Shown one piece after another: positions 32,492 through 49,963 of a stretch of 64,000 nucleotides of DNA. A program made the translations under genes and the position numbers. This stretch comes from Treponema berlinense. GTDB lineage: Bacteria; Spirochaetota; Spirochaetia; Treponematales; Treponemataceae. The notes under the pieces were generated by a model, which saw only the letters and a list, made by a program, of their open reading frames with translations, did no database searches and was not told where the DNA came from. The DNA is taken from NCBI RefSeq assembly GCF_900167025.1, contig NZ_FUXC01000005.1, positions 98,520 through 162,519 of the forward strand, written 5' to 3'. Numbering within the stretch: the first letter of the stretch is position 1; every line of letters starts with the position of its first letter.

Positions 32492-32531
32492 ATTAGGAAG
32501 TAATAAAAAAGTGTTATATAAGGGGACGAGC

Positions 32532-35500
32532 ATGAAAAAAAGTGCGTTTTTCTTTTCTGTTTTAATTGTCTGTGGATTATCTGTTTTTGCACGTGGCAAG
32601 CGCGATATTGATGAGCGCGACGTTGCCCAGATGGACAGCTGGCAGGAAGAATTTGATATTAGCGGCAAAAAAGAAGGCAAGTACAATGCCATGGTTACCG
32701 TAAAGGATAAAGGCGGTAACGAAATTGTCGGCGGACCTTATAATATTTTTATTGATCCTGATTCGGATTATCCTGTTTCTGGTATAACAAACCCGATTAA
32801 AAATATGCGTGTTCCGGGCAACTTGAATATTGTCGGAACCTGTATTGATGATGACGGAGTTGACGAAGTTTGGATTAGCCTTGACGGAGCAGAACCTGTC
32901 AAAGCAAAAGGAAAAGAATTCTGGTCTTATTATCTTGATACTACGGAACTTTCGGAAGGCCCTCATACAATCGAAGTTTATGGAATTGATATAAACGGAC
33001 TTTCTTCTGCGGCAAAACCTTCAAAGAACGCAAAGGTAACCTGGAACCTTGACCGCAGGCTTCCTGTTACAGAAGTTACAAATCTTGCGCTCGGAACTCT
33101 TGTTTCTGGCAAAATCAATCTCAAAGGAACAGTTTCTGACGGAAACGGCATAAAAGCTCTTTCATATTCACTTGACGGAAGAAAAACCTTTAGCGAAGTA
33201 AAAATCAATGAAGACAAAAAAACTGGAATTTGCACCTTTGAGCTTCCAATCAACACAAAAGAATCTCCGGACGGAGCGGCAGTCTGCTGGTTTAAGGCAA
33301 CGGACAAAATGGGTTCTGTCGGATACAATTCGTTCCTTTATTTTATCGACAACACAAAACCAGACGTAAAAATTGTTTCTCCTGCTGACGGCGAAGTTAT
33401 GAACGGCCGTTTTGGAGTTGCAGGTTATGCAAAAGACACAATCGGCGTTCAGAAACTTACATGGGCTTGCGGCGAAAAATCCGGCGAATTTGAACTTACT
33501 CCAGGAAACCCATACTGGTATCACGAAATAGACACAATCGGTCTTAATACAAAAAAAATTGAATTTTCGGTGACGGCTTTGGATACTGCCGGAAACGAAG
33601 TGACCGTTAAAAAGGCAATTCCAATCGACCAGGAACTTGATAAGCCTGTCGTAACGATTGAATATCCTGCAAAGGACGGAATTGTCGAAGGAGAGGCCGG
33701 AACTTTGTTCTTGCGCGGAATTGCGGCGGACGATGACGGAGTTGTTTCTGTCGAATACAAACTCGACGACGGAGAAACAAAAACTCTCGAAACTCATGGT
33801 GTTTTCTATGTTCCTCTCAGCGAAGAAAATGACCTTTCGGCAGGAAAACACAGCGTAACGGTAATTGCAACCGACATTCACGGTGTGCGCGGAAATCCTG
33901 TAACTTCAACCTTTGTTTCTATGGGAAAAGTTCCAGCGATTGAAGAGGGAAAAATCAATTCAAGCCTCGGAAGCGAACCTGTGTTCACAGGAGTGGCAGT
34001 TCATCCTGAGTCTAATCCAAAATACGAAACTACAGTTTTGAGCGACTGCGGAATTTCTTCGGTTGCATGGCAGTTAAACTGGGGCGACAACGGAAGCAAG
34101 ACCGGAGAAGTTGCCCTCAAAGGCGGAGAAAAATCAGTTCCTGTAAGCATTGCGCTTGGCGGTGATGATGTTGCTTATGGAGCGGTAAATCTTAAAATTA
34201 CGGCGATTGATATTTATAATCGCGTATCTCAGAAAATTGAACTTGTAAAACTTTTGGATCTTACTCAGATAAATGTCGAAAAACCGGCGGTTGTTTTTGA
34301 GGACAGCCGCATAAGCGAAAATGGCGACATTACAAACGACATTGAACATCCTGTTTCCGGATATTTTGCCGGCGGAAAAATAAAAAGCGCTTCTATTGTT
34401 CCTGCAACTCCTTTTGCAAAAATTGAGTACGATGAATTTACGATAAAATTGACTGCAACTGACGCTCTCGGAACTTCATCTCCTGTAAAAGTACGTGTAA
34501 TTTCTCAGGACAATGTTGCTTACGAAAGCCGCGAATTGATCTTCCATTCGGATTCTCCGGCGCCAAAAGTTGCCGTTGACAAAACTGAAGAAAATCTTGA
34601 ACAGCAGTTTGACGAAGACGGAAACCCGATAGAAGAACGTTCAAAAATAAAAATTTCTGGAGCGGTTTCTTCAGAAACACCTCTTACTTCTCTAAAATAC
34701 CGGATTATAACAGTTCCTGCTGTTTTTGACTTAAAAACTCCTTCGCTGGTGACAGGAGCAGGTTCTCCTTCGTTCGGACAATTTGCAGAACTTCCTGCAA
34801 AAACAGGCGGATTTGAGTTCGAAATTGATGCTGCTGAGCTCAGAAAGGGAATTTCTGTAGTCGAAATTGTAGCAAACAACGGAAAAACGGCGGCAGATTC
34901 TGTAAAAATCAGAAATCTTCCGGAATTGCCTTCAAAAACAGCCGACGGCAAAAAAATCACTCCGGCAAAACCTGTTTATTCGTGGATTGATGCGGAAGAC
35001 GTTTACTATGTAATTATTTCTCAGACTACTTCTTCAAATTTTAGCGGAACATTCTTCCGTTCAGAAATGGCTGCCGGTTCTTCAGAACTTTCGGTAAAAG
35101 CAAGCGACGGAAAAGTTATTTCAAAATACACTGCAAAAAAACCAGGTTCTGCAAAAGTGTTTATTTCAGAAATTGACGGAAAAACTTACGCAAGCGGAAT
35201 GAGAATTGCACTTCCCCGCGGAAATTCTAATTCTCCAAAAAACGCATGTGTGAGCATTGTTTCCGACTTCCCTGTAACTTCCGTAAACTGGGCTATTTCT
35301 GGAGAAAAGCTTCCTGGCGGTGACGAAAAACAAAGCGGGAAAGTTGATGCAAAACAAATCCGCCAAATTGATTCAACTCATTACGAAGCAAATATTCCTT
35401 TGAATAATCTTCCTTCAAGACTTACTTCTCTTGAAATAACGGCAGAAACTGCTGGCGGAAATGCTTTTTATAAGGGAACTGTCGGAATTGTGCGCGAAAG

Positions 35501-38500
35501 GGATTCTGCTCTTGTGGACAACGAAAATAGAATTTACTGGGCGCCGACAGAAAAAACTCCGTTCGACACTGCAAATTCCCGCTATGTATTAAAAACCGGC
35601 GAAAAATTTGGAGCATTTGTAAACGTTTTTGGCCCTGTATCGGCGACTCTTTCAACTTATCAAAACGGACTTACTGTTCAAGCGGACGGAAATTTTGCAT
35701 ACATTATTGCAGAAAAAGAAGGAATTTATAAAAATGTCGGCCTTAAAGTGACTGACAGTCAGGGCGTAACATATAATTCAACTGTGATAGAACTTTTAGT
35801 TGATGATTCTGCTCCAACCGTAGAAATTGTTGCTCCTGAGCTGCAAAAGTGGATTCAAAAAAACACAATGCTTACTGTAAAAGCCGGCGATTTAAATGGA
35901 ATTGAAAGCGTTGAATATTCGGTAGACGGCGGTCGAAACTGGAATCCCTGCAAAGGAAACGGAAGCGGAACTTATGTTGCCGCGCTCAATCTTGAATCAT
36001 TTGAAGACGGAATCATTCCTGTTGACGTGTTTGTAAAAGACATTGCAGGAAAAATTTCTTATGCTCAGACAGTAATTCAAAAAGATACTCAGACTCCGCA
36101 GGTTCAGGTTGTTGTTCCTTGCGCAGATGATGTTGTAAACGGCGAAAATCTTATCGCATTTATTGTAAAGGACAGCGGACACTTTAGCCGTGCAGAATAT
36201 GTTGCGCCTAAAAACGGAAATGCCGCTTCTGCGCCAGTTGAACTTCCTCTTGGACCTATGGTTGTTACTCATATTGGAACAGCGGACAAGCAGATTAGCG
36301 ATTTGATGTCATTCAATTTTTATGATGAGACAGGAAATGTCGAAACGCTCCGCCGCTGGGACTTTATAATTGACCAGAAATCGGATCTTCCAATTGCAGA
36401 AGTTCATATGCCGGAAGAAGATGCCGTAATAACGACAGACTTTGTTGTTTCGGGCGTTGTAGTTGATGACGATGGACCTTCAAAAGTTTATTACAAAATC
36501 GACAACGGTGAATACAAGCTTGTTTCTGAAGAATATGGCACAAGTTTTTCAATCGATGTTCCTCTTTCAACGATGAAAGACAACGAACACTCGGTTACTG
36601 TTTATGCAGAAGACTTGAATGGTGTAAAAGGACCGGAATTTGTCCGCAACTTTAAAATTTCTCTTGAAGAACCAAAGGGCGCGGTTATAACTCCTCCGAT
36701 TGACAATACAGTCCGCGGCTGGGTAAAGCTTACAGGAAAAGCAACTGATAAAAACGGCATAAGCAAGGTTTATATTTCTGTAGACAACGGAAATACTTAT
36801 AACGAGGCGACTGGAAATTTTGCCCACGAAAATGAAGTTTCTGACTGGTCTTACGAATTCGACACAAGAGTCGTAGAAGACGGAACTCATGTTGTATTTA
36901 TGAAAGTTGTTGACTGGTTTGGAATCGAAGGCCTTTATTCATCTTTGATAAACATTGACAACACCGCTCCGAGCATTGACCTTGAATTGCCGCTTGACGA
37001 TTCAAAAACAACAAAAATGCTGTTCTTCTCTGGTCAGACAACGGATAATATTGGGCTTAAAAAACTTTATATTACGATTCGTTCTCTTGAAGGCAAAACT
37101 GTAAGTCAAAAACTTGCAAACATCAACTTGACCCCTGGAGAAATCATTACAGAATCAATAGATTTGTCTTCTCTCGACAACGGTTTTTACAATGTTGAAT
37201 TGACAGGAATGGACGCGGCAGACAACATTACCCGCGTTTCAAGAAACGTTCAGCTGGACAAACGCGCCGCAATGGCAAAGGTTGATCTTTTGTATCCGCT
37301 CAATGGAGAATTTGTAAAAGGCGTATTCAATATTTATGGAACGGCAGTAAGCGAAATCAACATTGAAAGCCTTGAACTTTTGGTTGACGGAGAAAAAACG
37401 GCAGAAACAACACTGAGCGAAAGCGGATATTACAAATTTAATCTTTCGCCGGAAATGCTTACTGACGGACAGCACAAAATTCAGGTTAAGGCAAATCTTG
37501 CAAATGTAAGCACAATTATGTCTAACGAACAGTTTATAAATTACACTTCTGTTGGTCCTTGGGTTACAATCGACAATTTTACTTACGGAGATTTTGCAAT
37601 CGAAAGACCGTACATTGTTGGCGATGCCGGATATGCAATTTCTGAAACGGAACTTGTTGCTGCAAAGGCAAAGGGCGCTCAAAAAGAAATGAAAGACGCC
37701 ACCTTGGCAAAAACTGTAGAAAAAGTTGAAATTTCTTTCAACAATGGAAAATCATTTGAAGAAATTTCAAAAACTGGAAAATGGCGCTACCGCATTGAAA
37801 ATGAAGACATTACCGAAGGCTATCACTTTATGCTCGTGCGTGCGACAATGAAAAACGGCGAGACAGCGGTTACAAGAACTATTGTTCAGGTTGATAAGAC
37901 TAAGCCGACTGTTAAGCTCATAAGCCCGGGCGAAGGCGGACGCTTTAACCAGAGCATTGAATTTAACGGTCTTGCACACGACGATGTTGCGCTTAAGAGC
38001 GTTTCTCTTGCTTTGCGAAAAGGTGACAAGTCAAGTTACGAAGTTCCAGCTTTTATTCAGGGATTGTATTTTGACTGGCATTTCTGGGGCGCAACTCTGT
38101 TTGATATTGGTGCCGGACTTTCGTTCTTTGACGACAACGTTCGTATTCAGGTGCAGTGGGGACAGTTTACGCAGACACAGCGCGAAATGTTTACAAAAAC
38201 AAACCAGCGTTATGGCGGCGACAGCGTATTGGGAGCAAAAATTCTTGCAAACGTTGCATATATTCCATTTATGTACTTCCTTGGACGCGATTACGAATGG
38301 CTTTCTGCAAACGTGACTGTCGGTGCAAACTTTACGAGATTTAATCAAGGTCAGTCTGGTAAGCCGCAGGTTCTTTCTGCCTTGCTTGCCCAGATTGAAT
38401 TCCCGAGGGTGACTTTTGCAAAGCAGAAGATGTTCAGGACGTTCTCAATTTATACAGAAGGTCAGTTGTGGTTTATTCCAACAGATGTAAGTTCGGACGT

Positions 38501-38558
38501 TGATATTGACAACCTGGTTCCGCAAATCTCTGTAGGTTTGCGTGTAAATGTATTCTAG
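32532..38558 (+). CDS. Giant secreted Ig-like repeat protein with probable C-terminal outer-membrane barrel
   Basis: 2,008 residues. A signal peptide ends near VFA (residue 20). At least ten beta-sandwich repeats of about 95 residues follow, each starting with a pattern like D-x-x-x-P-x-V-x-I-x-x-P (for example IDNTKPDVKIVSP, IDNTAPSIDLELP, VDKTKPTVKLISP) and containing G-x-A-x-D-x-x-G-I. The repeats are regular in residues 80-460 and 1090-1800; the middle (about 470-1085) is less regular. The last 180 residues lack the Ig pattern and consist of amphipathic, aromatic strands (FIQGLYFDWHFWG, NVRIQVQWGQF) ending in VGLRVNVF, whose final Phe is typical of outer-membrane barrels. Probably a surface adhesin. 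The next gene, 59 bp downstream, is a giant lipoprotein of similar build. Confidence 0.85.
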   Translation: MKKSAFFFSVLIVCGLSVFARGKRDIDERDVAQMDSWQEEFDISGKKEGKYNAMVTVKDKGGNEIVGGPYNIFIDPDSDYPVSGITNPIKNMRVPGNLNIVGTCIDDDGVDEVWISLDGAEPVKAKGKEFWSYYLDTTELSEGPHTIEVYGIDINGLSSAAKPSKNAKVTWNLDRRLPVTEVTNLALGTLVSGKINLKGTVSDGNGIKALSYSLDGRKTFSEVKINEDKKTGICTFELPINTKESPDGAAVCWFKATDKMGSVGYNSFLYFIDNTKPDVKIVSPADGEVMNGRFGVAGYAKDTIGVQKLTWACGEKSGEFELTPGNPYWYHEIDTIGLNTKKIEFSVTALDTAGNEVTVKKAIPIDQELDKPVVTIEYPAKDGIVEGEAGTLFLRGIAADDDGVVSVEYKLDDGETKTLETHGVFYVPLSEENDLSAGKHSVTVIATDIHGVRGNPVTSTFVSMGKVPAIEEGKINSSLGSEPVFTGVAVHPESNPKYETTVLSDCGISSVAWQLNWGDNGSKTGEVALKGGEKSVPVSIALGGDDVAYGAVNLKITAIDIYNRVSQKIELVKLLDLTQINVEKPAVVFEDSRISENGDITNDIEHPVSGYFAGGKIKSASIVPATPFAKIEYDEFTIKLTATDALGTSSPVKVRVISQDNVAYESRELIFHSDSPAPKVAVDKTEENLEQQFDEDGNPIEERSKIKISGAVSSETPLTSLKYRIITVPAVFDLKTPSLVTGAGSPSFGQFAELPAKTGGFEFEIDAAELRKGISVVEIVANNGKTAADSVKIRNLPELPSKTADGKKITPAKPVYSWIDAEDVYYVIISQTTSSNFSGTFFRSEMAAGSSELSVKASDGKVISKYTAKKPGSAKVFISEIDGKTYASGMRIALPRGNSNSPKNACVSIVSDFPVTSVNWAISGEKLPGGDEKQSGKVDAKQIRQIDSTHYEANIPLNNLPSRLTSLEITAETAGGNAFYKGTVGIVRERDSALVDNENRIYWAPTEKTPFDTANSRYVLKTGEKFGAFVNVFGPVSATLSTYQNGLTVQADGNFAYIIAEKEGIYKNVGLKVTDSQGVTYNSTVIELLVDDSAPTVEIVAPELQKWIQKNTMLTVKAGDLNGIESVEYSVDGGRNWNPCKGNGSGTYVAALNLESFEDGIIPVDVFVKDIAGKISYAQTVIQKDTQTPQVQVVVPCADDVVNGENLIAFIVKDSGHFSRAEYVAPKNGNAASAPVELPLGPMVVTHIGTADKQISDLMSFNFYDETGNVETLRRWDFIIDQKSDLPIAEVHMPEEDAVITTDFVVSGVVVDDDGPSKVYYKIDNGEYKLVSEEYGTSFSIDVPLSTMKDNEHSVTVYAEDLNGVKGPEFVRNFKISLEEPKGAVITPPIDNTVRGWVKLTGKATDKNGISKVYISVDNGNTYNEATGNFAHENEVSDWSYEFDTRVVEDGTHVVFMKVVDWFGIEGLYSSLINIDNTAPSIDLELPLDDSKTTKMLFFSGQTTDNIGLKKLYITIRSLEGKTVSQKLANINLTPGEIITESIDLSSLDNGFYNVELTGMDAADNITRVSRNVQLDKRAAMAKVDLLYPLNGEFVKGVFNIYGTAVSEINIESLELLVDGEKTAETTLSESGYYKFNLSPEMLTDGQHKIQVKANLANVSTIMSNEQFINYTSVGPWVTIDNFTYGDFAIERPYIVGDAGYAISETELVAAKAKGAQKEMKDATLAKTVEKVEISFNNGKSFEEISKTGKWRYRIENEDITEGYHFMLVRATMKNGETAVTRTIVQVDKTKPTVKLISPGEGGRFNQSIEFNGLAHDDVALKSVSLALRKGDKSSYEVPAFIQGLYFDWHFWGATLFDIGAGLSFFDDNVRIQVQWGQFTQTQREMFTKTNQRYGGDSVLGAKILANVAYIPFMYFLGRDYEWLSANVTVGANFTRFNQGQSGKPQVLSALLAQIEFPRVTFAKQKMFRTFSIYTEGQLWFIPTDVSSDVDIDNLVPQISVGLRVNVF
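32770..37950 (+). repeat. Tandem Ig-like domain repeats in the 2,008-residue protein
   Basis: Starts of recognisable units lie near 32770, 33064, 33345, 33630, 35800, 36085, 36385, 36670, 36955, 37260 and 37885. The regular spacing is about 285-305 bp. DNA between units is diverged, so this is domain repetition rather than a recent duplication. Confidence 0.75.
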
Positions 38559-38617
38559 AAATTTTTTTCTAGGATTAGCACATGTAGATTGATTTTGTTT
38601 TAGGAAGGTGATTTTTC

Positions 38618-41600
38618 ATGGAAAAAAGTGTTTTTAATCTAGGAAAAGGGAAAGAACCTCTCAAAGTAATACGGGGGGGGGTATTTGCAATTATGCTGTG
38701 CGCCCTCGTCTGCGCGGCGGGCTCCTGCAAGGTAGGACTTGGGGACTCTGTAGACACCGAGGCGCCATCTGTAAAAATCGTATATCCTGATCCGAACACA
38801 AACGCCATAATCCGCGACACCTTCATACTCTACGGCGACTGCGACGACGACAAGCAGATCACGGCGGTAAAAATTACTCTTGTGAATATCGACACCGGGA
38901 CTACTGTGCTTTCTGATGTGCCGGCTACGGTGGATTCTGACCAGAAACACTGGAGAATCAAACTGAATTCCCACTCTGAGGAAAACAAATACAACGGCTG
39001 GCAGTTTGCGGACGGAAAATATACCGTTACTGTCCGGGCTTATGACGGTTCCCACGACAGCAGTTCTGACGAAAAAAGCAGCACTTCTTCTTCTTTTGAA
39101 ATTGACAACACCGCTCCTGTCTTTGTGATTAAAAATCCGGGAGTTTTGAAAACCGAAACCAGTTCTCCTTCGGCTTACGGTTCTATCTTTACGGTTGAAG
39201 GAACAATCTCGGAACTCCATTCTGTAAGTTCTATGGAAGTAACTGTCTACGACGAAGCCGGTAACTGTGTTTCTGAAGAATTCTACGACGGGGAAACTTT
39301 ACAGGCATTTGTGGAAGAGGACATTGAAATTGCCGGTGGTACCAGCGTAATTATTGCCCAGTCCGGCTCTACTGACGGAAGGTACAACAAGATTTACGGT
39401 GAGGGTTCGGGCACTCAAAAATTCACCTGTTCTATAAAACTTACCGACAACGCAAAAAAATACGTGAATCCTCCTGAACTCAGCGATTCCAGGTCGGCGG
39501 AGGAAGCTGCTCTGGACGAAAAGGGAAATTCAACCTGCAGCATCTATCTTTACGACGATGTTTATAACGCCCTTTTGAGCCAGAAAAATCCTGAAAGCAA
39601 AAAACTCAGTGCCGGGGATTTGAAAAACTTAATCAACTGTACCTTGGATAACAAAGAAGCCAGAAATTTTCTTCTGGAGAAAGAAAAAAACACTGACTCG
39701 GCTGGAGATGCTTCAAAAAGGCTTTATTTTTCTTTAAATCCAGAGGCAAACCCTACCTATAACGTAAACGGTTTTGAGTACAGTTTTGTGGAAGACGATT
39801 ATTTGCAGCAGGCTTCTGCCGGAAATGCTGTTTCTGTGACTGTTCTTCAGGGACTTGACCAGACTATGATTGATTTGGACGGTGATCCGGACGGAAACGA
39901 AAAGTCTAATTCAACGGTAAAGGTTTGGATGAAGGAATTTCTTGACAGACCTTTGGACGAAGCGGCGGTAAAAGAGGAGATTACGGAGACTCTGGCTCCG
40001 AAGGTAAAGGCCCAGGAAGACGAGGGAAATGAAGGTTTTGTGGAATATGTAAAGGGAACGAAAGAAGTTCCTGTAACTGAAATTGAAGGCTGGAAGCTGA
40101 TTTTTGACTACGGTCAGAACAATTCCGGGGAAAGCTCTGTTTCTACAAAGACTTTCTCTGTAACTTTGCCGGCGGGTTCTATCGCCCTGAACAAGTATTA
40201 TCTTCTGGTGGTAACCGGACGGGACATTGACAATGTTGAATTTTCTCAGAGCAAGATTTACGGTTTTGAAGGAAACGAAGCGGGAATTCCACCGACTTTG
40301 ACCATCGACGACATTTATGGGGACAAGGCAAAAACTGTAAAAAATCTTGTGCCGTCTTCTAATTTTGACTTTACCGGTAAAGCAACTTTGAAAGGCTCTT
40401 CTCTCTATACTTCGGAATTTTCTGTAACTCTTACGGTAGAGGATCAGGACTCTGATAAGATAATTGGCACTGTAACGGAAACACTGACCCGCTCTGCCTT
40501 AGACAAGCCCTGGTCAGAAACCGCTGCCCTTAAATTTACTGATAAGGAAAACTGGATTTTTACCCCAGACAAGCTGGGTAACGATAATTTTAAGGTTGTG
40601 AAGGGAGTTGGAAAATCTTACCTTTATACTCTGGAAGTTTGGGGAAAGGCTTCTTCTGGCCACGAAAGCTCTTCAACTTTAAACCTTCAGATTGACTCGA
40701 AAAATCCGGCGGTGGAAATTACTTCGATTACGCCGACGGTTGATGAATACGATGAGGAGAAAGGCCCTTTTGTAAACGGGACAATCTGGGTAAAAGGCAA
40801 TGTGGAAGAAACAAACCTGGAAAACGTTGCCGTTGAAGTTTATGCTGGTGACACTCTTGTAGAGAAGGCTTCAAATGCCAGCCTGGGTAAAAAATATTCA
40901 ATCAATTACGAAATTGACACTACCACACTGAAAGATGACTCTGCCCTGGAAATAAGACTTAAAGCCGTAGACAAGGTAGGAAACGAAACCTGTGTTTCTT
41001 CGACTGCGCTGGAGGATTATAAGGAACTTAAGATTGCTCAGAAGACGGATATGCCGGTTGTTACGCTGAATAATGCAAGCCCAGCGATAAAGAGCGCTGA
41101 CGGCATAAGTGTGGATGAGAATCTGTTTGGAACGGTTTCTAATAACAAGATTTCAGTATCTGTTTCTGACGATGACCTTATAAAAAGCGTTACGATGAAG
41201 GTTTCCAGCGAAGCAGGAGAGGTAATCGACTCGACAACAAAAGACGAAATTGGAAAATCAACCTACAGTGCTTCCTTTGCGCTTCCAACAGCCGAAGGAG
41301 TGTACAAGGTTGAAGTTATTGCGAAAGACGACATCTTATCGACAGAACTTTCTGGGGAAAGAGAAGCGAAGACGACTGTCATCGGTCCTTTCTTTGTTGC
41401 TGTTTCTGCGGGAGCTCCAACCATAAGCCTTGACTCTGTAAAAACCTACTTGACGGCTACACCTAGCTTTACAGGAACAGTTTCCAGCGACCAGGCAACT
41501 GTCAGCGCCAAATTTACAAAGGCAAACATTGGTGGCAAAGATGCCGACGAAACAGAGCTTTCAAAATATACCGCTCTGCTCAGCAAATCAGAAGTAAATG

Positions 41601-44600
41601 CGAAAAAATGGACAGTTTCTCTCAATTCAGGGGCATCTCTTGACAACGGAAACTACACGATTCGCTTTACTGCTGAAAATAAATATGGCGAATCAAACTC
41701 TTCGGAAGCAGAATTCACTGTAGACAACGTAGCACCAACTGTAAAAATAACAGAATACAACTCGATTAAAAACGAAAACGGATTTACAGAACCACTGAAT
41801 TTCTATCTCAACCCAGAGAACATAAAGACGATAAAAGGAACCTGCGCCGACAACGAAAGCGGAAGCGGAATAGACAGCGTCTACTATTACATTGGCGACA
41901 TCACAGGAAAAGAGATTCCATCGACAGAAAACGGCTGGATTCTTGCAAATCTCACAAAAACCGAAAGCGAAACAGGCTGGACTATTTCTCTTACAGACTT
42001 AAATGTTGAGGAAGGAAAAAATTATCCAGTTCATATAAAAGCTAAAGATAATGCTGGAAACAGAAGCGAAGACTATAATTATATCAGTCTTTACATCGAT
42101 AAAACTGGACCTAATTTGAAGGCTTCTGTGCCTGATTCAGGCTTGACTTATACAAAAAATGAAAAATTTTACCGAGTTTACGGCTCAAATTCATTCAACG
42201 TTTCTGTAACTGCGACAGATGTTGCTGGAGTTGCAAGCGTTTCGGCTAACTCAACATCTCTTGTAAAAGGCGATGACGGAATTTACACTGGAACAGTTTC
42301 TGTAACTCCAGATTCGAATGGCTTTGCTTCAATCAGCGTTATTGCAATGGACAGCGTTGGAAATTCTTCAGAAACAACAATCGATGACGTAATGATTGAC
42401 TCGACCGCGCCAACCGTTGCGATCTCGTCATATCCTGAAAATGCGACAAAAGACGAATTTACGCTGAGTGGAACTGTTTCAGACAATATCGGTGTAAAAT
42501 CTGTCGTTATAACAGATTCTCTTGATTCTGCAAAATCATACGAGGCGACTGTTAGCGGTGGAAAATGGTCTGTAACTTTGAAGCCTTCTTCAATCGCGGC
42601 AGGCGCAGACGAGACAAATGACGGCTCACACACTTACACCGTAACCGCAAAAGACAAAGTCGGAAACACTTCAACTAAAACCTGCCGCGTTACGACCGAC
42701 ACCACAGCTCCTTACTGGTACACAGACAACACAGAAAATAAGGAGCCTTATATAAGCACAAAGGCAAGCTCAGAAAAAATCACGGTTTCCGGTGTTGAAT
42801 ACAGCCTGTACAATTCAACTTCTGTAACGGTTGCGGCAAAGGCAAAAGATGCGACAACAAACGTCGGACACCTGCTTTACAACTTGAACGACGAGAAAGA
42901 CAGTTTATCTGCATTGGTTTGGAAAACCGTGGACAACGGAAACATCACCGTGGAAAACCTTGCGCAGGGCTTAAACACGCTCAAGATAAAGGCCGCCGAC
43001 GAGGCTGGAAACGAGACTTCACCGTTTGCGATTTCATTCTTCGTGGATTCCCTTGCTCCGGCTGAGCCTGCTTTGAAATCTGTTGACAGCGACTCTGACG
43101 AAGGCTCAATGAAGATTTTTGCCGCCCAGAACAAGCAGAAACTTGTGAACGGAAATTCTGATGTCGTATTCAAAGTGGAGGTGGCAGACAAAGCCGCGGA
43201 CGACACTTCAGACGGAAAAGACTCTTACAGCGGAATCGCCTCTGTTGAGCTTGCAAAAATCGGAAACAAGACCCTTTCCAAGGCAATTTCCGGAACTTTT
43301 GTCTCAGAAGAAAACGGAAAACAAGTCTATTCAATCACAGTTCCGGCTGGCGAGCTTGCAAGCGGATCTGCAAACGTGACTGTAAAAGACAAGGCAGGGA
43401 ACTCGACAACGCTTGGAATGTTCAACTTCCTTTTGGACAACAAGGCTCCTGCTGTTTCCATGTCTTCTCCTGCAGGCGATGTAAACAAGACAATCTCCCT
43501 GAGCGCAAGCGCGACCGACAACCAGGAAATCGACGGGGCCACGCTTAAACTTGAATACAGTACCGACAAAACAAACTGGACAAAACTTTCGAGAGATAAT
43601 GCCGGCCCAGAATACAAGGCTGTAATCTCGGATTCTGTAATAAGCGTTACAGGCTTTGACACTACAAAATTTGCGGACAAATCCACAGTCTACGTAAGGG
43701 CAGTTATAAGCGACAAGGCGAAGAATGAAGGAAAGTCAGAAGAGGTAGCCCTCAGAATAAACCAGGACTCTGACCGTCCGGTTGTAAAGATAGACAATCT
43801 TGCAAGGCTTGGAGACGGAACTTTCATCCTCAAGTACGGAACAAACGCCCAGATTACGGGAACTCTTTCCGACGACGACTCAACTTCAGGCGCAGTTGTA
43901 GAAGAATTTGTTATTTCTGAGACCCCTTATACAGGAAGTGAAAGTGTAAAAAATCTTGCAAAAAAATTCGATTCTGCCACAGGCGACTTTACGTTCGAGC
44001 CGGAAAACACAGAAGACGGGACAAAGACACTTTACTTCTATATAAAAGACAACGGCGGAAGCGAATTCTACACAACGGCTCCGACAGGCGCGGATTCCAG
44101 CGGAAGCACAGCATATCTTAAAAACCCGAAGCTGTACCTAAAGACAGAACCACTCGATGACTCTCTTGCGGCAAAAGTTTTTTCTTATAAATCGGATTCG
44201 AACAGCCCGACAGTAACAGCAGGAAAAGGTGTCCTTTATTCGGACAATGCAGGAGAAAATGCCGCAAAAGACGCGAATGGCGAAACTTTCGATTTTGCCA
44301 GCTCAAATTCAACTCTTAACACAAGTTTTGTTGCCGGCGGCTCAGAAAGAAGATTCGTAAAATTCCAGTTTGAAGCAAATGACGCAAGCGGAATTGAGGG
44401 AATGACGCTTGAACTGTTTGATGAGGCAAATAATTCCGTTTTAAAACTAAAGACTCCTGATTCAATAACAGGTGCCAGCGGATTTACAACAAGCGGAACA
44501 ATAGAACAAAAACAAATAAAACCAAATGAGACAGACCCGACAACATCAATCTGGACAACGGAAATTATAGATTTAGAAGGTAAGACCACCGCCCAGTACA

Positions 44601-47600
44601 CCGCAAAAATAGTTCCTTACGACAAGGCAGGTCTTGCAGGAAACGGCTCATACTCATTCTTCATAGACAATTCCGCTCCAGAAATCGTGATTCGCTCCCC
44701 AATAAGCGGAAAAGAAGTTACAGGAACCGTAAGCATTGCAGGAACCGCAACCGACACAGGAAGCTCAGGAACCGCAAATATTCAATGGCTTATTCCAAAA
44801 AAAGAATTTGTGACTGTCGCAAATACAAAAACAGGCACAGAAAAACTTGAATATCTGAAAAGTTTGAATTGGAATGGAGGCGAAGACGCGCTTGCGGCAA
44901 CAGCGACACTTACTTCATGGCAGTTCGACTTTGACGGCAAAAACGACGATGCAGCTTCCGACCCGGCAAACTTTATTTTCAAAGGCGGAAACCCGGCTCT
45001 CGACGTTTATGATTCTGACGTTTTTGCAACAAATGTAACAGACGGAATCTATGCACTGCCAGTTTATTTTATGGCAACAGACGCAATCGGAAATTACTCG
45101 ATTTATGAAAAATATGCTCTGCGCCATAACCCTGACGGCGACAAGCCAAAACTCGACTTCCTCTACCCTACCGTTTCCGATTATGGAAAAGACCTTGAAT
45201 ATGTTGTTCTTGGAGGCACAATCCGTGCAACGGGAAGCGCGGTAATTCCAAGCGGAACAACTACCGTAAGATCCGTTTATTACCAGATTGCAGGCGAAAA
45301 CGGCTCTTTCTCAGAATCTGACAAAACTGCTGCCTCAACTAACTATGGATACGCTGTTTTAACAGCTTATGACGTTGTAAAAGAAATAACAGGAACAGAT
45401 TATTCTTCAACTTCAAGAACTATTGATGATTCTATGCTTAAAAAGTTTGGATTCTCAACAAAGGCCGAAATGGACGCCTGGTGGGGAATTAAGGCAAACG
45501 GAACTGCCGCATGGAACATAATTCTTAACGAAAGAGGAGAACTCAATCCAGAAACAGATGGTTCTACAACGAATATAAAAATCCGCACCTGTGGCATAAA
45601 TGCTGAAGGAAAATTCGGCGCATGGACAAGCGGCGACAACGTAATTTCAATTCATATTGATGACAAAGCGCCAGTAATCAACAGCATTGTAAAACAGTAC
45701 AAAGAAGACGAAATCACTTCAAATCCAACGAAACTTCCAGAGTGTAAAGCAAGTCAGAATTACGTTTCTGATATGTTCTTGAGAGAACAGTGGTATCTTG
45801 AAGTTACTCTCTTAGACGAAACTGCAGTTACAAGCTACTCAGTTCAAAAGGACACAACCTCGCTTACAGAAGGAAGCGGATATTTTGTTCAAAGCAACGT
45901 TGAAGACAAGTCTAAAAACGGTTACAGGCTCTACATTCCTATTGATAAGGATTCTGATTCTGTTTCGTACACAATCACGGCAAACGATAAAGAACACACT
46001 GCAACCCAAACATTCTCTTTTAGACTCGACAACACAGCGCCAACACTCGAAAGCCTTACAGGAAACGGTCAAGATTTGGCACCAAACGGAATTATCGAAG
46101 ATTCAAACTATGTCTACACAGTAGGCGGAAAATCCGAAGATTCAGGTTCCGGAGTAGAAAGAGTTTTGTTCTACTTTATGAGAAAGTCAGGCATAACAAA
46201 AACTACGATTACTGACGAAGTTCTTCTCGACCCGATGATTACAACAGGCACGGACAAAAGCAAAATCGAACTTTCAACTTTGACCGCATTGCCAGTTACG
46301 CAGGAAAATAAAACATTCTATCTGTATGCAAAAGCACAGACTTCAAGCGCCACGAAGGACACGTTTACACTTCTTACATCGGCAGATTCTCATATTAGAA
46401 CTGGCGGGCTAATCTACATTGACGGTCTGTACAGAAAAATTACAAAACTTGACGGAACAACAGTCACATTTGAACCTGCAATGTCCGAGGCAAAAGCTTC
46501 TGTAACCGCATACTTCCCTATTGCCCAGGTTATCGACAACACAGCCACCGAAAAAGTAAAGAGCAATTCGGCAAATCCATTCACTTTTGAAAGCGGAGAT
46601 GACGGCGACGGAATGCCGGAAACATTCTCAAAGACAGGAACTACATGGACTTGGGACGCGACAATTCACTCTTACAATATGCCGGACGGCCCTGTAACTT
46701 TGGTCATAATGGCCTTTGACGAAGCAGGAAACGTAAGCAGAAAGAGTTACAACCTGATGATTGTCAACAACGCACCAAGGCTTGCAAAAGTATGGCTGGG
46801 TACGGATTTGAACAACGATGGAAAATTCACCTCCAGCTCTGACATTAAAGAGATTGTGGAATACAACATTCTGGCAGCAGAAGGCAACGAACAGAAGGAA
46901 TATGAACTGGACTTTACGGCAAAAAAATCCGACGGAACACCGAAATATGAGTCTGGAATCTTCAAGATAAAAAAAGATCTTGCGGTTATCCCGGAATTTA
47001 CCGGCGGAAACGGCTCCATAGGAATGATTTCCAACCTGACGGCAACGGACACCACAAAAACCACAGGCACCGTAACAGAAGCTTCTGCCAGGGACGTTAC
47101 AGTTACAGGAACAGAAAAGACCCTTATGGACAGTTCCGATTCTCCAAAATTTACCAGTCAAAAATTTACAACAAATGCAAAAGCAAATTCCATATATGCC
47201 TTTGTAATATCTGAAAATGAACTGGGAGATGACGGAGAAAACAGGGGAATGAGCTTTACTTTCTGGGACAAAACCGAAGAAACAGAACAGGGAACAAACA
47301 GCCAGTACTCGGTTCTTTTTGTGAAGAATTTTTCCATTGCCCAGAAAGACAATACCCCTCCAAATGCGGTAATAGACCCGTTCCAGTGGAACAGTCTTAC
47401 AGACAACTCCATCTACGGCTCAGAAACATCAGAAAGTTTTTCTGACCTTAAAGGCCACATTGAACTTGAAGCCGACTGGAAAAAAGCCACCGGCTACAAA
47501 GACAGCGAAACAAACGGGCAGTTCGACGGCGACCCTAAAGTTTCTGGAAAAATCACAATCCGGGGGTCTGCTTACGACAACACCAACCTGACCGCCCTTT

Positions 47601-49963
47601 ACGCTGTAATCGACGATTTTACTTTCGCAAACTCCACGGCTTCCACAGGTTTGGAAACAACCGGCATTACAACCACAGAAAGCAGTGGCTCAAAAACCCG
47701 CACCATGGTTAAGCTGGCAACTTACGAAAATGGAAGCTGGACAGTAACAAAAGGCGGAATGGATGACTACGGCTGGAACTTTTCGGTAACAGACGGTGGA
47801 ATTTCCCAGACAGGGCACCGGGTAACCTGGCAGCTGGACTGGGACACAAGCAAAGTCAGCGGAATTGTCGGAGCAGACAAGGTAATAGGCATAGCCGCCC
47901 AAGACCACAAAGGAAACTACAGCTGGCAGACCGCCTCCGCCCAAACAGAAGACGAAACCATCTTCAACAGACCGGAATATCGGGTGGACGTTGTGCCGTA
48001 TGTCGTAAAAGTTGAAACAAAACTTTCAAAACAGAAAAAATCCAACTGGTCTGTCTACAACCGCTCTGCCCTCGGACACTATCCGGTACAGTCCGTTGTA
48101 AGCAATGTTGCCAGCGGAATACTCAACACCAAAACTTCGGAAGACGTAACTTTGCACGGCTTTAACCTGAACGGAACTTCGGTAACAATAACAGGAAGGA
48201 AAAATGCTGTTATAACCGGAAATGTTTCTGAACAGACAGCCACTGACCTGTCAAAAATCACATTCAACGTTGCAGACCTGGCTTCTGGTACGCTTAAACT
48301 GAGTGTAAATAACGTAGAAGTTATCAACAACTACAACGACAACGATGCCATGGGAACTGCAGAAACAGAGGGAACTGCCAGCAAAAATATGTACAACAGG
48401 CAGGCAAACGGCGACACAAACAACATACTTACAGACGACCTTGTGTTTGACGTGTGGGAATTTAACGACAGGGCAGCAAAGCCGATTAACGGTCTTGCCA
48501 CAGGAGTGCAGATGCAGGTAAACCAGAGTTCAAAAATGCTGAACTTTGCCTTTGCAAACGGTGGTCTGTTCTTTAGCATGGGCGGAAAAGTGGGGGATAC
48601 AGACTACTCAAGCTATTACTGGGCAGGGGACTGGGATACCTTTGCAGGCCCTAGCGTAGGCTTCCACGTAGACGCCAGTGGCAACACCTACTCCGTAGCC
48701 AGCGGTGGAGATACAAATGCTCAAGGTCATGTTGATAAATACGCATTCTACACAAGCCGCTGGGGATTAGGTACAAGAAACACAGGTGGAACATACGGCG
48801 GTTCAAATGCCCTAAGGCTTGAAGAAATAGCCATAAAAACAGGCCCAGAAACATTTGACTATTCCCTTATGAAGTACCGGTATCTTTCTTCGGAATTTGC
48901 TTCTTCTTCCACAAACCTGTATCTGGTAAACTACGATGCCCTTACGGACGAAATACGCTTTAGGGCAGGAACTTTTGACAGTACAACAAACCAATTTACC
49001 GGAGGCTTTACAGATACTTATAAAGGTCAAACCCCATCCTACTACAGCACGGCTAACTGTCAGGTAATAGCAAACAACTCTGTAAGCGGAGGACGTTTCC
49101 TTACAGATGACAGCGGTAGCACTACCAAAGTTGCCCCAATCTCAGGGCGGGGTGCCGGACAGTACGTGGACATTGCAGTTGCAACAAACGGCACAAATAA
49201 CAAAGACGCCGTCTGTGTTGTATGGTTCGATGCCTACGAAAACTGCCTTAAATACAGTTATTACGTAGACCCCATCAGCAATTGGGAAAACCTTAAAGGC
49301 GACAGTAAGGCAACAGGCTGGTCTACACCAAAAACGATTTTTGAAGAAGGTGGCGAATACTGCCAGATTGTTGTGGACGCAGAAAACCACATCCACATTG
49401 CAGCCTACGCTGGTAACGGTGACGTAAAATACGCTTATCTTGAAAGATATAATTCGCCATACAGCGAAGGAACAAATTCCTGCACGGTGGACTCTTCCGG
49501 TGCCGTAGGAGAACACCTGACTCTGGACGTGGCCCTGGACGAAAAAGGAAACAGTATTCCGTACATCGGCTACTTTACGGCAGCCATAAAGGCTCCAAAG
49601 TATGCCTGGCTTTCAGACACGACAAAAGGCAAAGTGCCAGCCGGTGTTGATGATTACGAGCGGTTTACGGGAGCCTGGGAAGTAACGGTATTACCGACCC
49701 CAAGCCGTCCCACCACAAACAGGGAAGACAAGATTAACATAGGAGTGTTCAAGGATGAAGACGGAAAACTAAACTGGTCTACAACAGACGGCAATGCACC
49801 GGCAGATTCAAACATTGGCACAAGCACCTGCAGCATTTCCGTAAACGGCTACTCTTCTACAGAAACAAGCCAGTGCTACGGCAATGGTTCAAAAAATGCA
49901 GTCTTTGCTTACCAGATTTCTGGCAGCACAGGCTCTTGCATCGAAACCGCGCAAATGCGCTAG
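38618..49963 (+). CDS. Giant Ig-like repeat lipoprotein with IPT-like and propeller-like C terminus
   Basis: 3,781 residues, about 400 kDa. The N terminus has a basic part (LGKGKEPLKVIRGG) and a hydrophobic core, followed by a lipobox-like VCAAGSC with Cys37 as probable lipid site. Most of the chain is repeated beta-sandwich units marked by D-x-x-x-P (VDNTAPTVKI, IDSTAPTVAISS, FIDNSAPEIVI, LLDNKAP). Calcium-loop-like D-x-N-x-D-G segments occur (TDLNNDGKFTS near residue 2729). An IPT/TIG-like segment lies near residues 3130-3230 (VTLHGFNLNGTSVTITG), and the last ~300 residues have propeller-like blades (DAENHIHIAAYAGNGDVKYAYL). AGGAAGGTGA precedes the ATG. Codons 19-22 are a nine-G tract. Likely surface-exposed. 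Confidence 0.85.
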   Translation: MEKSVFNLGKGKEPLKVIRGGVFAIMLCALVCAAGSCKVGLGDSVDTEAPSVKIVYPDPNTNAIIRDTFILYGDCDDDKQITAVKITLVNIDTGTTVLSDVPATVDSDQKHWRIKLNSHSEENKYNGWQFADGKYTVTVRAYDGSHDSSSDEKSSTSSSFEIDNTAPVFVIKNPGVLKTETSSPSAYGSIFTVEGTISELHSVSSMEVTVYDEAGNCVSEEFYDGETLQAFVEEDIEIAGGTSVIIAQSGSTDGRYNKIYGEGSGTQKFTCSIKLTDNAKKYVNPPELSDSRSAEEAALDEKGNSTCSIYLYDDVYNALLSQKNPESKKLSAGDLKNLINCTLDNKEARNFLLEKEKNTDSAGDASKRLYFSLNPEANPTYNVNGFEYSFVEDDYLQQASAGNAVSVTVLQGLDQTMIDLDGDPDGNEKSNSTVKVWMKEFLDRPLDEAAVKEEITETLAPKVKAQEDEGNEGFVEYVKGTKEVPVTEIEGWKLIFDYGQNNSGESSVSTKTFSVTLPAGSIALNKYYLLVVTGRDIDNVEFSQSKIYGFEGNEAGIPPTLTIDDIYGDKAKTVKNLVPSSNFDFTGKATLKGSSLYTSEFSVTLTVEDQDSDKIIGTVTETLTRSALDKPWSETAALKFTDKENWIFTPDKLGNDNFKVVKGVGKSYLYTLEVWGKASSGHESSSTLNLQIDSKNPAVEITSITPTVDEYDEEKGPFVNGTIWVKGNVEETNLENVAVEVYAGDTLVEKASNASLGKKYSINYEIDTTTLKDDSALEIRLKAVDKVGNETCVSSTALEDYKELKIAQKTDMPVVTLNNASPAIKSADGISVDENLFGTVSNNKISVSVSDDDLIKSVTMKVSSEAGEVIDSTTKDEIGKSTYSASFALPTAEGVYKVEVIAKDDILSTELSGEREAKTTVIGPFFVAVSAGAPTISLDSVKTYLTATPSFTGTVSSDQATVSAKFTKANIGGKDADETELSKYTALLSKSEVNAKKWTVSLNSGASLDNGNYTIRFTAENKYGESNSSEAEFTVDNVAPTVKITEYNSIKNENGFTEPLNFYLNPENIKTIKGTCADNESGSGIDSVYYYIGDITGKEIPSTENGWILANLTKTESETGWTISLTDLNVEEGKNYPVHIKAKDNAGNRSEDYNYISLYIDKTGPNLKASVPDSGLTYTKNEKFYRVYGSNSFNVSVTATDVAGVASVSANSTSLVKGDDGIYTGTVSVTPDSNGFASISVIAMDSVGNSSETTIDDVMIDSTAPTVAISSYPENATKDEFTLSGTVSDNIGVKSVVITDSLDSAKSYEATVSGGKWSVTLKPSSIAAGADETNDGSHTYTVTAKDKVGNTSTKTCRVTTDTTAPYWYTDNTENKEPYISTKASSEKITVSGVEYSLYNSTSVTVAAKAKDATTNVGHLLYNLNDEKDSLSALVWKTVDNGNITVENLAQGLNTLKIKAADEAGNETSPFAISFFVDSLAPAEPALKSVDSDSDEGSMKIFAAQNKQKLVNGNSDVVFKVEVADKAADDTSDGKDSYSGIASVELAKIGNKTLSKAISGTFVSEENGKQVYSITVPAGELASGSANVTVKDKAGNSTTLGMFNFLLDNKAPAVSMSSPAGDVNKTISLSASATDNQEIDGATLKLEYSTDKTNWTKLSRDNAGPEYKAVISDSVISVTGFDTTKFADKSTVYVRAVISDKAKNEGKSEEVALRINQDSDRPVVKIDNLARLGDGTFILKYGTNAQITGTLSDDDSTSGAVVEEFVISETPYTGSESVKNLAKKFDSATGDFTFEPENTEDGTKTLYFYIKDNGGSEFYTTAPTGADSSGSTAYLKNPKLYLKTEPLDDSLAAKVFSYKSDSNSPTVTAGKGVLYSDNAGENAAKDANGETFDFASSNSTLNTSFVAGGSERRFVKFQFEANDASGIEGMTLELFDEANNSVLKLKTPDSITGASGFTTSGTIEQKQIKPNETDPTTSIWTTEIIDLEGKTTAQYTAKIVPYDKAGLAGNGSYSFFIDNSAPEIVIRSPISGKEVTGTVSIAGTATDTGSSGTANIQWLIPKKEFVTVANTKTGTEKLEYLKSLNWNGGEDALAATATLTSWQFDFDGKNDDAASDPANFIFKGGNPALDVYDSDVFATNVTDGIYALPVYFMATDAIGNYSIYEKYALRHNPDGDKPKLDFLYPTVSDYGKDLEYVVLGGTIRATGSAVIPSGTTTVRSVYYQIAGENGSFSESDKTAASTNYGYAVLTAYDVVKEITGTDYSSTSRTIDDSMLKKFGFSTKAEMDAWWGIKANGTAAWNIILNERGELNPETDGSTTNIKIRTCGINAEGKFGAWTSGDNVISIHIDDKAPVINSIVKQYKEDEITSNPTKLPECKASQNYVSDMFLREQWYLEVTLLDETAVTSYSVQKDTTSLTEGSGYFVQSNVEDKSKNGYRLYIPIDKDSDSVSYTITANDKEHTATQTFSFRLDNTAPTLESLTGNGQDLAPNGIIEDSNYVYTVGGKSEDSGSGVERVLFYFMRKSGITKTTITDEVLLDPMITTGTDKSKIELSTLTALPVTQENKTFYLYAKAQTSSATKDTFTLLTSADSHIRTGGLIYIDGLYRKITKLDGTTVTFEPAMSEAKASVTAYFPIAQVIDNTATEKVKSNSANPFTFESGDDGDGMPETFSKTGTTWTWDATIHSYNMPDGPVTLVIMAFDEAGNVSRKSYNLMIVNNAPRLAKVWLGTDLNNDGKFTSSSDIKEIVEYNILAAEGNEQKEYELDFTAKKSDGTPKYESGIFKIKKDLAVIPEFTGGNGSIGMISNLTATDTTKTTGTVTEASARDVTVTGTEKTLMDSSDSPKFTSQKFTTNAKANSIYAFVISENELGDDGENRGMSFTFWDKTEETEQGTNSQYSVLFVKNFSIAQKDNTPPNAVIDPFQWNSLTDNSIYGSETSESFSDLKGHIELEADWKKATGYKDSETNGQFDGDPKVSGKITIRGSAYDNTNLTALYAVIDDFTFANSTASTGLETTGITTTESSGSKTRTMVKLATYENGSWTVTKGGMDDYGWNFSVTDGGISQTGHRVTWQLDWDTSKVSGIVGADKVIGIAAQDHKGNYSWQTASAQTEDETIFNRPEYRVDVVPYVVKVETKLSKQKKSNWSVYNRSALGHYPVQSVVSNVASGILNTKTSEDVTLHGFNLNGTSVTITGRKNAVITGNVSEQTATDLSKITFNVADLASGTLKLSVNNVEVINNYNDNDAMGTAETEGTASKNMYNRQANGDTNNILTDDLVFDVWEFNDRAAKPINGLATGVQMQVNQSSKMLNFAFANGGLFFSMGGKVGDTDYSSYYWAGDWDTFAGPSVGFHVDASGNTYSVASGGDTNAQGHVDKYAFYTSRWGLGTRNTGGTYGGSNALRLEEIAIKTGPETFDYSLMKYRYLSSEFASSSTNLYLVNYDALTDEIRFRAGTFDSTTNQFTGGFTDTYKGQTPSYYSTANCQVIANNSVSGGRFLTDDSGSTTKVAPISGRGAGQYVDIAVATNGTNNKDAVCVVWFDAYENCLKYSYYVDPISNWENLKGDSKATGWSTPKTIFEEGGEYCQIVVDAENHIHIAAYAGNGDVKYAYLERYNSPYSEGTNSCTVDSSGAVGEHLTLDVALDEKGNSIPYIGYFTAAIKAPKYAWLSDTTKGKVPAGVDDYERFTGAWEVTVLPTPSRPTTNREDKINIGVFKDEDGKLNWSTTDGNAPADSNIGTSTCSISVNGYSSTETSQCYGNGSKNAVFAYQISGSTGSCIETAQMR
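38673..38681 (+). repeat. G9 homopolymer in the signal-peptide codons
   Basis: Nine consecutive G encode Arg-Gly-Gly-Val of the signal peptide, about 55 bp after the start codon. A gain or loss of one G would shift the frame before the lipobox and end translation early. Poly-G tracts are known phase-variation sites in Treponema pallidum. Confidence 0.85.
42729..43440 (+). repeat. Left copy of an inverted repeat shared by the two giant genes
   Basis: About 710 bp nearly identical to 63290-64000 on the opposite strand; both encode the VKTVDNGNITVENLAQGLNT and SIASVEL region. Further matching blocks lie at 43760-44200 and about 62510-62960. Confidence 0.85.

Follow-up and report, generated by a model that had tools for sequence, protein, structure and literature searches.

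The window, a stretch of 64,000 nucleotides of Treponema berlinense DNA, contains nine consecutive G residues (G9) close to the 5' end of a very long open reading frame, designated gene A. The question raised by this locus is whether the tract is a mutable repeat that turns gene A on and off, or whether it has some other origin or role. Codons 1-37 of gene A are predicted to specify a lipoprotein-type signal peptide consisting of a charged part, a hydrophobic stretch and the sequence AAGSC, and the G9 tract lies where the charged part ends, 5' of the predicted lipobox cysteine at codon 37 (Table 1). This cysteine was invariant in 15 of 15 aligned family members. The position given in an earlier, sequence-only reading, in signal peptide codons 19-22 upstream of the lipobox of a 3,781-residue protein, was confirmed. 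The only domains identified by Pfam in the gene A product were Ig-like, and the protein is presumably located on the cell surface. The closest named proteins to the start of gene A, among the best 120 of 365 matches, were those of T. berlinense (76%).

Table 1. Features of the gene A locus and G or C tracts at other loci. Numerical positions refer to the window; other loci are given by contig or genome and locus handle.
Feature	Position or locus	Strand	Remarks
G9 tract	38673..38681	+	codons 19-22, cGG GGG GGG Gta = R19 G20 G21 V22; read from the sequence
Gene A, 3,781 aa, predicted lipoprotein with Ig-like repeats	38618..49963	+	ORF; Pfam Big_13, 1.4e-12
Shine-Dalgarno-like AGGAAGGTG	38602..38610	+	ends 7 bases 5' of gene A ATG
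Codons 1-18, charged start of predicted signal peptide	38618..38671	+	K3, K10, K12, K16; then R19
In-frame ATG (Met26)	38693..38695	+	11 bases 3' of G9; P0003 and P0050 begin at the matching Met
Predicted lipobox AAGSC with Cys37	38714..38728	+	read from the translation
98 bases including G9	38610..38707	+	exact repeat at the end of contig C31 (L008:1-98), with different upstream sequence
Upstream 2,015-aa gene, Ig-like domains	32511..38558	+	59 bases 5' of gene A
Gene B, convergent paralogue of gene A, without 5' third	56500..64000	-	cut by the end of contig C10, which is the window end
Tracts in lipoprotein 5' coding part	gene A tract; C11 L001		by eye
Tracts upstream of lipoproteins	C13 L002; C15 L003; C16 L004		by eye
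Tract between divergent genes	C24 L005		G10; by eye
Tract in other ORF	C29 L006		YidC-like; by eye
Tract in other ORF	C29 L007	C strand	AMP-ligase-like; by eye
Tract in other ORF	C29 L007		near ORF end, 5' of glycosyltransferase-like gene; by eye
Two G8 runs of the same genome	L045; L092		
Promoter-like G8-G9 runs, same genome	L002, L004		
Promoter-like G8-G9 runs, G015	L093, L096, L097, L100		
Promoter-like G8-G9 runs, G043	L113, L115, L116, L118		
Family 5' end, G9	L016		SFVRGGVCAF; in frame, signal peptide codons
Family 5' end, G10	L141		KKVGGGVLV; in frame, signal peptide codons
Family 5' end, C9	L020		FHTPPLNF; in frame, signal peptide codons
Family 5' end, G8	L139		out of frame: start frame stops just 3' of GGGII, lipobox in another frame; signal peptide codons

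When tract lengths from 6 to 13 were tried, the frame of gene A was kept only by 6, 9 and 12 G, and the tract is placed such that a change in its length alters the product, as at a contingency locus. A tract of nine G would put the body of 3,781 residues in the frame of the predicted signal peptide and the lipobox cysteine, while one G fewer (G8) or one more (G10) would end translation after 38 or 57 residues in total. That a one-base change truncates the protein had been claimed before and stands; that it does so after a few residues does not agree with these lengths. Judged from the sequence, the G9 tract is very probably a reversible ON/OFF switch, operated by slipped-strand mispairing during replication. 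Slippage of this kind would be fast and reversible within one clone, the OFF state would remove the gene A protein from the surface, and the population would benefit by being mixed when it meets host immunity, phages or attachment sites that change. A point against this reading is that the single assembly provides a single tract length for gene A. Several observations fit the ON/OFF reading, which had been put forward previously and is now well supported, 1) the frame logic just described, 2) an excess of G9 runs in the genome, 3) a public protein record, P0123, that leaves the frame at the tract, 4) the two frame states among the 120 listed relatives of a second G-tract lipoprotein, L001 (98 in frame, 22 not) and 5) the presence of tracts in the signal peptide codons of family members from other genomes (four of the 127 distinct 5' ends, one of the four being out of frame).

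The methionine codon just 3' of the tract suggested a different account, in which slippage during RNA synthesis, or initiation at Met26 from a ribosome site provided by the G run, tunes the amount of protein instead of turning it on and off, so that some protein is made in every tract state. There might indeed be some translation from Met26 in the OFF state, and gene callers picked the matching methionine in two public records, P0003 and P0050. However, a product initiated at Met26 would lack any positive charge in the n-region, so that its export would probably fail, and no comparable in-frame methionine is present in the 22 out-of-frame L001 relatives (best 120 of 284 matches). A leaky switch of this kind is considered unlikely.

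G runs were counted on both strands of the assembly from which the window was taken (2.52 Mb, 33 contigs). There were 31 runs of at least six G, 12 of at least eight and 10 of at least nine; by size, 19 were G6 or G7, two were G8, nine were G9 and one was G10. The probability that a G is followed by another G, measured in the window, was 0.21, a value that, together with the 31 runs of at least six, leads to an expectation of about 0.3 runs of at least nine, compared to the 10 observed, an excess of approximately 30-fold. One G9, at the terminus of contig C31, belongs to a repeat of the gene A 5' end, leaving nine distinct loci with at least G9; the probability of nine or more for an expectation of 0.29 is 3e-11. 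Runs of this length are commoner than chance in this genome, again as at contingency loci. Five of the nine distinct loci, sorted by eye, touch lipoprotein genes. Runs of at least eight G were found in all 98 of the 98 genus genomes searched, this one included, with 1 to 82 per genome. Fifty tracts of at least eight from five genomes were inspected. They comprised every tract listed for the present genome (minus the C31 repeat), G048, G043 and G015, and two of five for G001, and 31 of the 50 were exactly G9. TA was located directly 3' of 32 of these 50 tracts, coding tracts included, and TAT directly 3' of 16. The YidC-like ORFs of two genomes (L006:6120-8897 in this genome and L108 in G043) have a long C-terminal extension that appears sulfatase-like by eye, with a G9 inside each; a common tract position in the two genes was considered and rejected, as the positions in L006 and L108 differ.

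A search with residues 1-400 of gene A retrieved 365 proteins, the best 120 of which were listed. The motif [RQ]GGV was present at the place of the tract in 57 of these 120; two others start 3' of the tract, 60 are without [RQ]GGV and one has CGGI. The 57 are known as peptides, not as DNA tract lengths. The two that start at the methionine just 3' of the tract are P0003, which has 95% identity to gene A in residues 1-400 and is encoded on a 28,080-base contig, and P0050, on a 102,503-base contig. P0096, one of the 60 without the motif, begins 3' of the lipobox, even though P0082, which is identical there, has RGGV. The starts of P0003, P0050 and P0096 may be gene-caller choices.

The OFF state was sought with a mechanical G10 reading of the gene A 5' end, 57 residues long, as the query. 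Two candidates were found in all, P0123 and P0124; the latter was rejected as a normal in-frame fragment, and no G10-type peptide was found with this query. P0123 is a 44-residue protein in which residues 1-21 are identical to gene A and are followed by YLQLCCAPSSARRAPARWDLETL, the other frame of the window. The sequence RGG followed by Y fits a tract of eight G. There are two differences between P0123 and the off-frame reading of the window, one of them at the off-frame stop of the window. Each can be reached by a single base change that is silent in the frame of the gene A body, which suggests that the body is under selection. P0123 is one record on a 2,556-base contig, known as a peptide, and could be a sequencing error. 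The possible frame variants of the gene A tract on record are this one out-of-frame protein and the two starts 3' of the tract.

A second G9 lipoprotein gene, L001:4958-6688, is located on contig C11 of the same assembly, and its relatives are annotated as InlB B-repeat-containing. Its signal peptide, MKKSFFKTAIFAMATAALIFAGCNSDSGGG, is not in the frame of the body sequence, DDYPEITN, so L001 is OFF in this assembly. A search with the open body of L001 found 284 proteins at E <= 1e-5. Among the best 120, the lipobox was in frame in 98 and out of frame in 22. The latter begin with MQAVIRI, which is the lipobox DNA in another frame, and are on record without a signal peptide. They form separate 90% clusters and their open bodies range from 477 to 609 residues. 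Two of the in-frame relatives, P0151 and P0154, are annotated as Treponema berlinense; the nearest named proteins among the best 120 of 284, from T. berlinense, match L001 at 91% and 90%. Both states of a poly-G lipoprotein from this species group are thus present in public records, and as far as can be read from these proteins, the L001 relatives are the strongest population evidence for the predicted switching. If switching occurs in gut treponemes, a single reference genome would wrongly present OFF genes as truncated or as having a misplaced start.

The out-of-frame records could alternatively be sequencing errors or dying genes, the tract itself being stable in life. Homopolymers are error-prone, and the public records are proteins predicted from assemblies. 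Nevertheless, P0123 differs by changes that are silent in the frame of a body that appears to be under selection, and 22 separate clusters of L001 relatives with open bodies are difficult to attribute to error or decay, making this interpretation most improbable.

Gene A has many relatives. Its first 394 residues had matches in 59 of 97 genomes and its first 160 residues in 83 of 200 genus genomes (E <= 1e-15), the present genome being included in both counts. A scan of named genomes with the full gene A protein gave nine pattern matches and no confirmed ones, while a scan with an alignment gave 131 confirmed matches, of which 80 loci were kept, all from Treponema or Spirochaetes. In all, 176 loci in other genomes were examined, representing 127 distinct 5' ends. 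A tract was defined as a G or C run of at least six, between 120 bases 5' and 30 bases 3' of the GLG motif that follows the lipobox. Such a run was found in five of the 127 distinct 5' ends and was within the signal peptide codons in four (Table 1). At 122 of the 127 no run was present in the searched stretch around GLG, suggesting that the putative switch comes and goes in the gene A family; the signal peptide codons of 123 were without a tract, a point against the switch. L132, which has the fifth run, was considered as an out-of-frame copy and rejected; when all frames were read, its C9 turned out to precede the start codon and the reading frame was open. Even in the genome richest in tracts, with 82 in 2.7 Mb, the density is such that about 0.3 signal peptide tracts would be expected by chance in 127 x 80 bases, and the probability of four is 3e-4.

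These family members also bear on the possibility that the tract is a by-product, an RGGV peptide that is favoured where the charged region ends and is encoded by nine G fortuitously, with no switching role. The retention of [RQ]GGV in 57 of the best 120 homologues (of 365) could be explained in this way, but most of these are close relatives of gene A. Moreover, the 123 distinct 5' ends mentioned above manage without a tract, L020 and L141 have C9 (encoding PP) and G10 (encoding GGG) instead, and the out-of-frame records, P0123 and 22 of the 120 listed L001 relatives, run counter to a conserved peptide. This explanation is very unlikely, and the ON/OFF switch is preferred.

Some of the tracts were found between promoter elements. 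A tract was called promoter-like if it was located between a -35-like TTGAC and a -10-like TAnnnT, an arrangement found for 10 of the 50 tracts examined (two of 11 in the present genome, four of eight in G015, four of 18 in G043, none of 11 in G048 and none of two in G001) and at 90 of 60,918 sampled positions (0.15%). The box-to-box gap was 15-19 bases in nine of the ten; at L004 the script used the nearer TTGAC, giving a gap of 8, while by eye a more distant TTGACA puts it at 18. A lipoprotein-type start follows nine of the ten tracts, and a secreted-type start follows L113. The lipoprotein-type start after L115 stops after 33 residues. The same elements could be invoked for gene A if its G9 and the TAT that follows were part of an internal promoter or the binding site of a regulator, in keeping with the TA and TAT found after many tracts, with the ten promoter-like cases and with the occurrence of GTATTTGCA at the end of both the gene A tract and the L003 tract. 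The gene A tract is not among the ten of 50, however, and is 54 bases inside the ORF; an internal promoter was dropped, and a role of this type is extremely improbable.

The sequence-only reading had placed gene A next to a paralogue. The clear paralogue is gene B, on the minus strand; the upstream 2,015-residue gene, which is perhaps co-transcribed with gene A, has a single, weak match to it (32% over about 104 residues, E 5.9e-6). The identity of gene B to gene A is 97% over the last 71 bases and 81% over 1,470 bases; beyond these it is 23-48% at the residue level. Comparison of window positions 42730-44200 with 62500-64000 (minus strand) showed blocks of exact identity longer than 100 bases amid diverged blocks, as after gene conversion. 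A copy of gene A about 30% identical is located on contig C14; apart from this copy, gene B and the weak match in the 2,015-residue gene, no other copy of the gene A body was found in the assembly. There was no match in the 38 contig-end pieces searched, about 22 contig ends lying outside this search. One idea considered was that the 5' third of gene B is identical to that of gene A and was collapsed during assembly. As the contig end differs from gene A at three of the last 100 bases, loss of the gene B 5' piece is as possible as collapse.

The leader at the end of contig C31 belongs to a second gene with the leader of gene A, the body of which is outside the contig. As gene B has no 5' end and C31 has no body, the two may be one gene, and joining them may be the simplest guess. 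The median identity of 43 homologues to gene A was 92% for residues 1-37, 97% for residues 38-75 and 69% for residues 151-400, a common leader with different bodies that fits recombination among copies. It is conceivable, although this broader view is put forward tentatively, that gut treponemes have a genome-wide G9 switchboard that works both by frame and by promoter spacing, with recombination transferring the leader from one giant paralogue to another. G runs kept at a length of about nine would flip surface lipoproteins by a frame shift in or next to the signal peptide and by changes in the -35/-10 spacing of their promoters, and different bodies would come under one switch, as with the 98-base C31 leader.

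The closest precedent for the gene A tract is gonococcal pilC, where, as described in PMC5354566, a G run in the signal peptide codons turns the gene ON and OFF by frameshift and there are two gene copies, pilC1 and pilC2. The gene A run is likewise in predicted signal peptide codons, 19-22, 5' of the predicted cleavage site at Cys37. The phylum and the protein are different, PilC being a pilus tip adhesin, and slippage is experimental there, whereas for gene A it is deduced from DNA sequence. The gene A tract would be a new instance of signal peptide G-run switching, which was already known from pilC. In the opa genes of Neisseria (PMC4534519) a repeat within the signal peptide codons also gives ON and OFF frames, but the unit is CTCTT instead of G.

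Poly-G switching in treponemes has been described for the syphilis agent; according to PMC7864442, the poly-G of T. pallidum tprL, 8-10 in length, is in the promoter and varies within an isolate. The parallel with T. pallidum that was originally drawn is partial, being valid for the genus and for the presence of a G tract but not for its placement, since the tprL tract is in a promoter and the gene A tract is in coding sequence, outside any promoter-like arrangement. The promoter-like loci L002 and L004 are closer in placement to tprL. Poly-G tracts are also found in surface genes of Campylobacter. Phase-variable simple repeats have been catalogued throughout that genus, which belongs to another phylum than Treponema (PMC6321876). 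Homopolymers of at least seven were counted in a survey of treponemes in culture, in which T. ruminis, a species from the rumen, was described as the poorest (PMC8049484, section 6); the main text of that paper has no occurrence of "phase varia". Among the matches listed from the open-licence literature, which included papers on the syphilis group, on other genera and on a Brachyspira genome, there was no report of a signal peptide poly-G switch in gut treponemes. Some gut treponemes are in culture, and if this group employs poly-G for giant lipoproteins and promoter spacers, the diversification of the spirochaete surface becomes testable in harmless cultured species.

A further observation concerns genome G048, where two G15 tracts (among L081, L082 and L088) have similar left flanks and a G10 has the right flank of the L082 G15. 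The three loci represent copies of one element that differ in tract length within a single genome.
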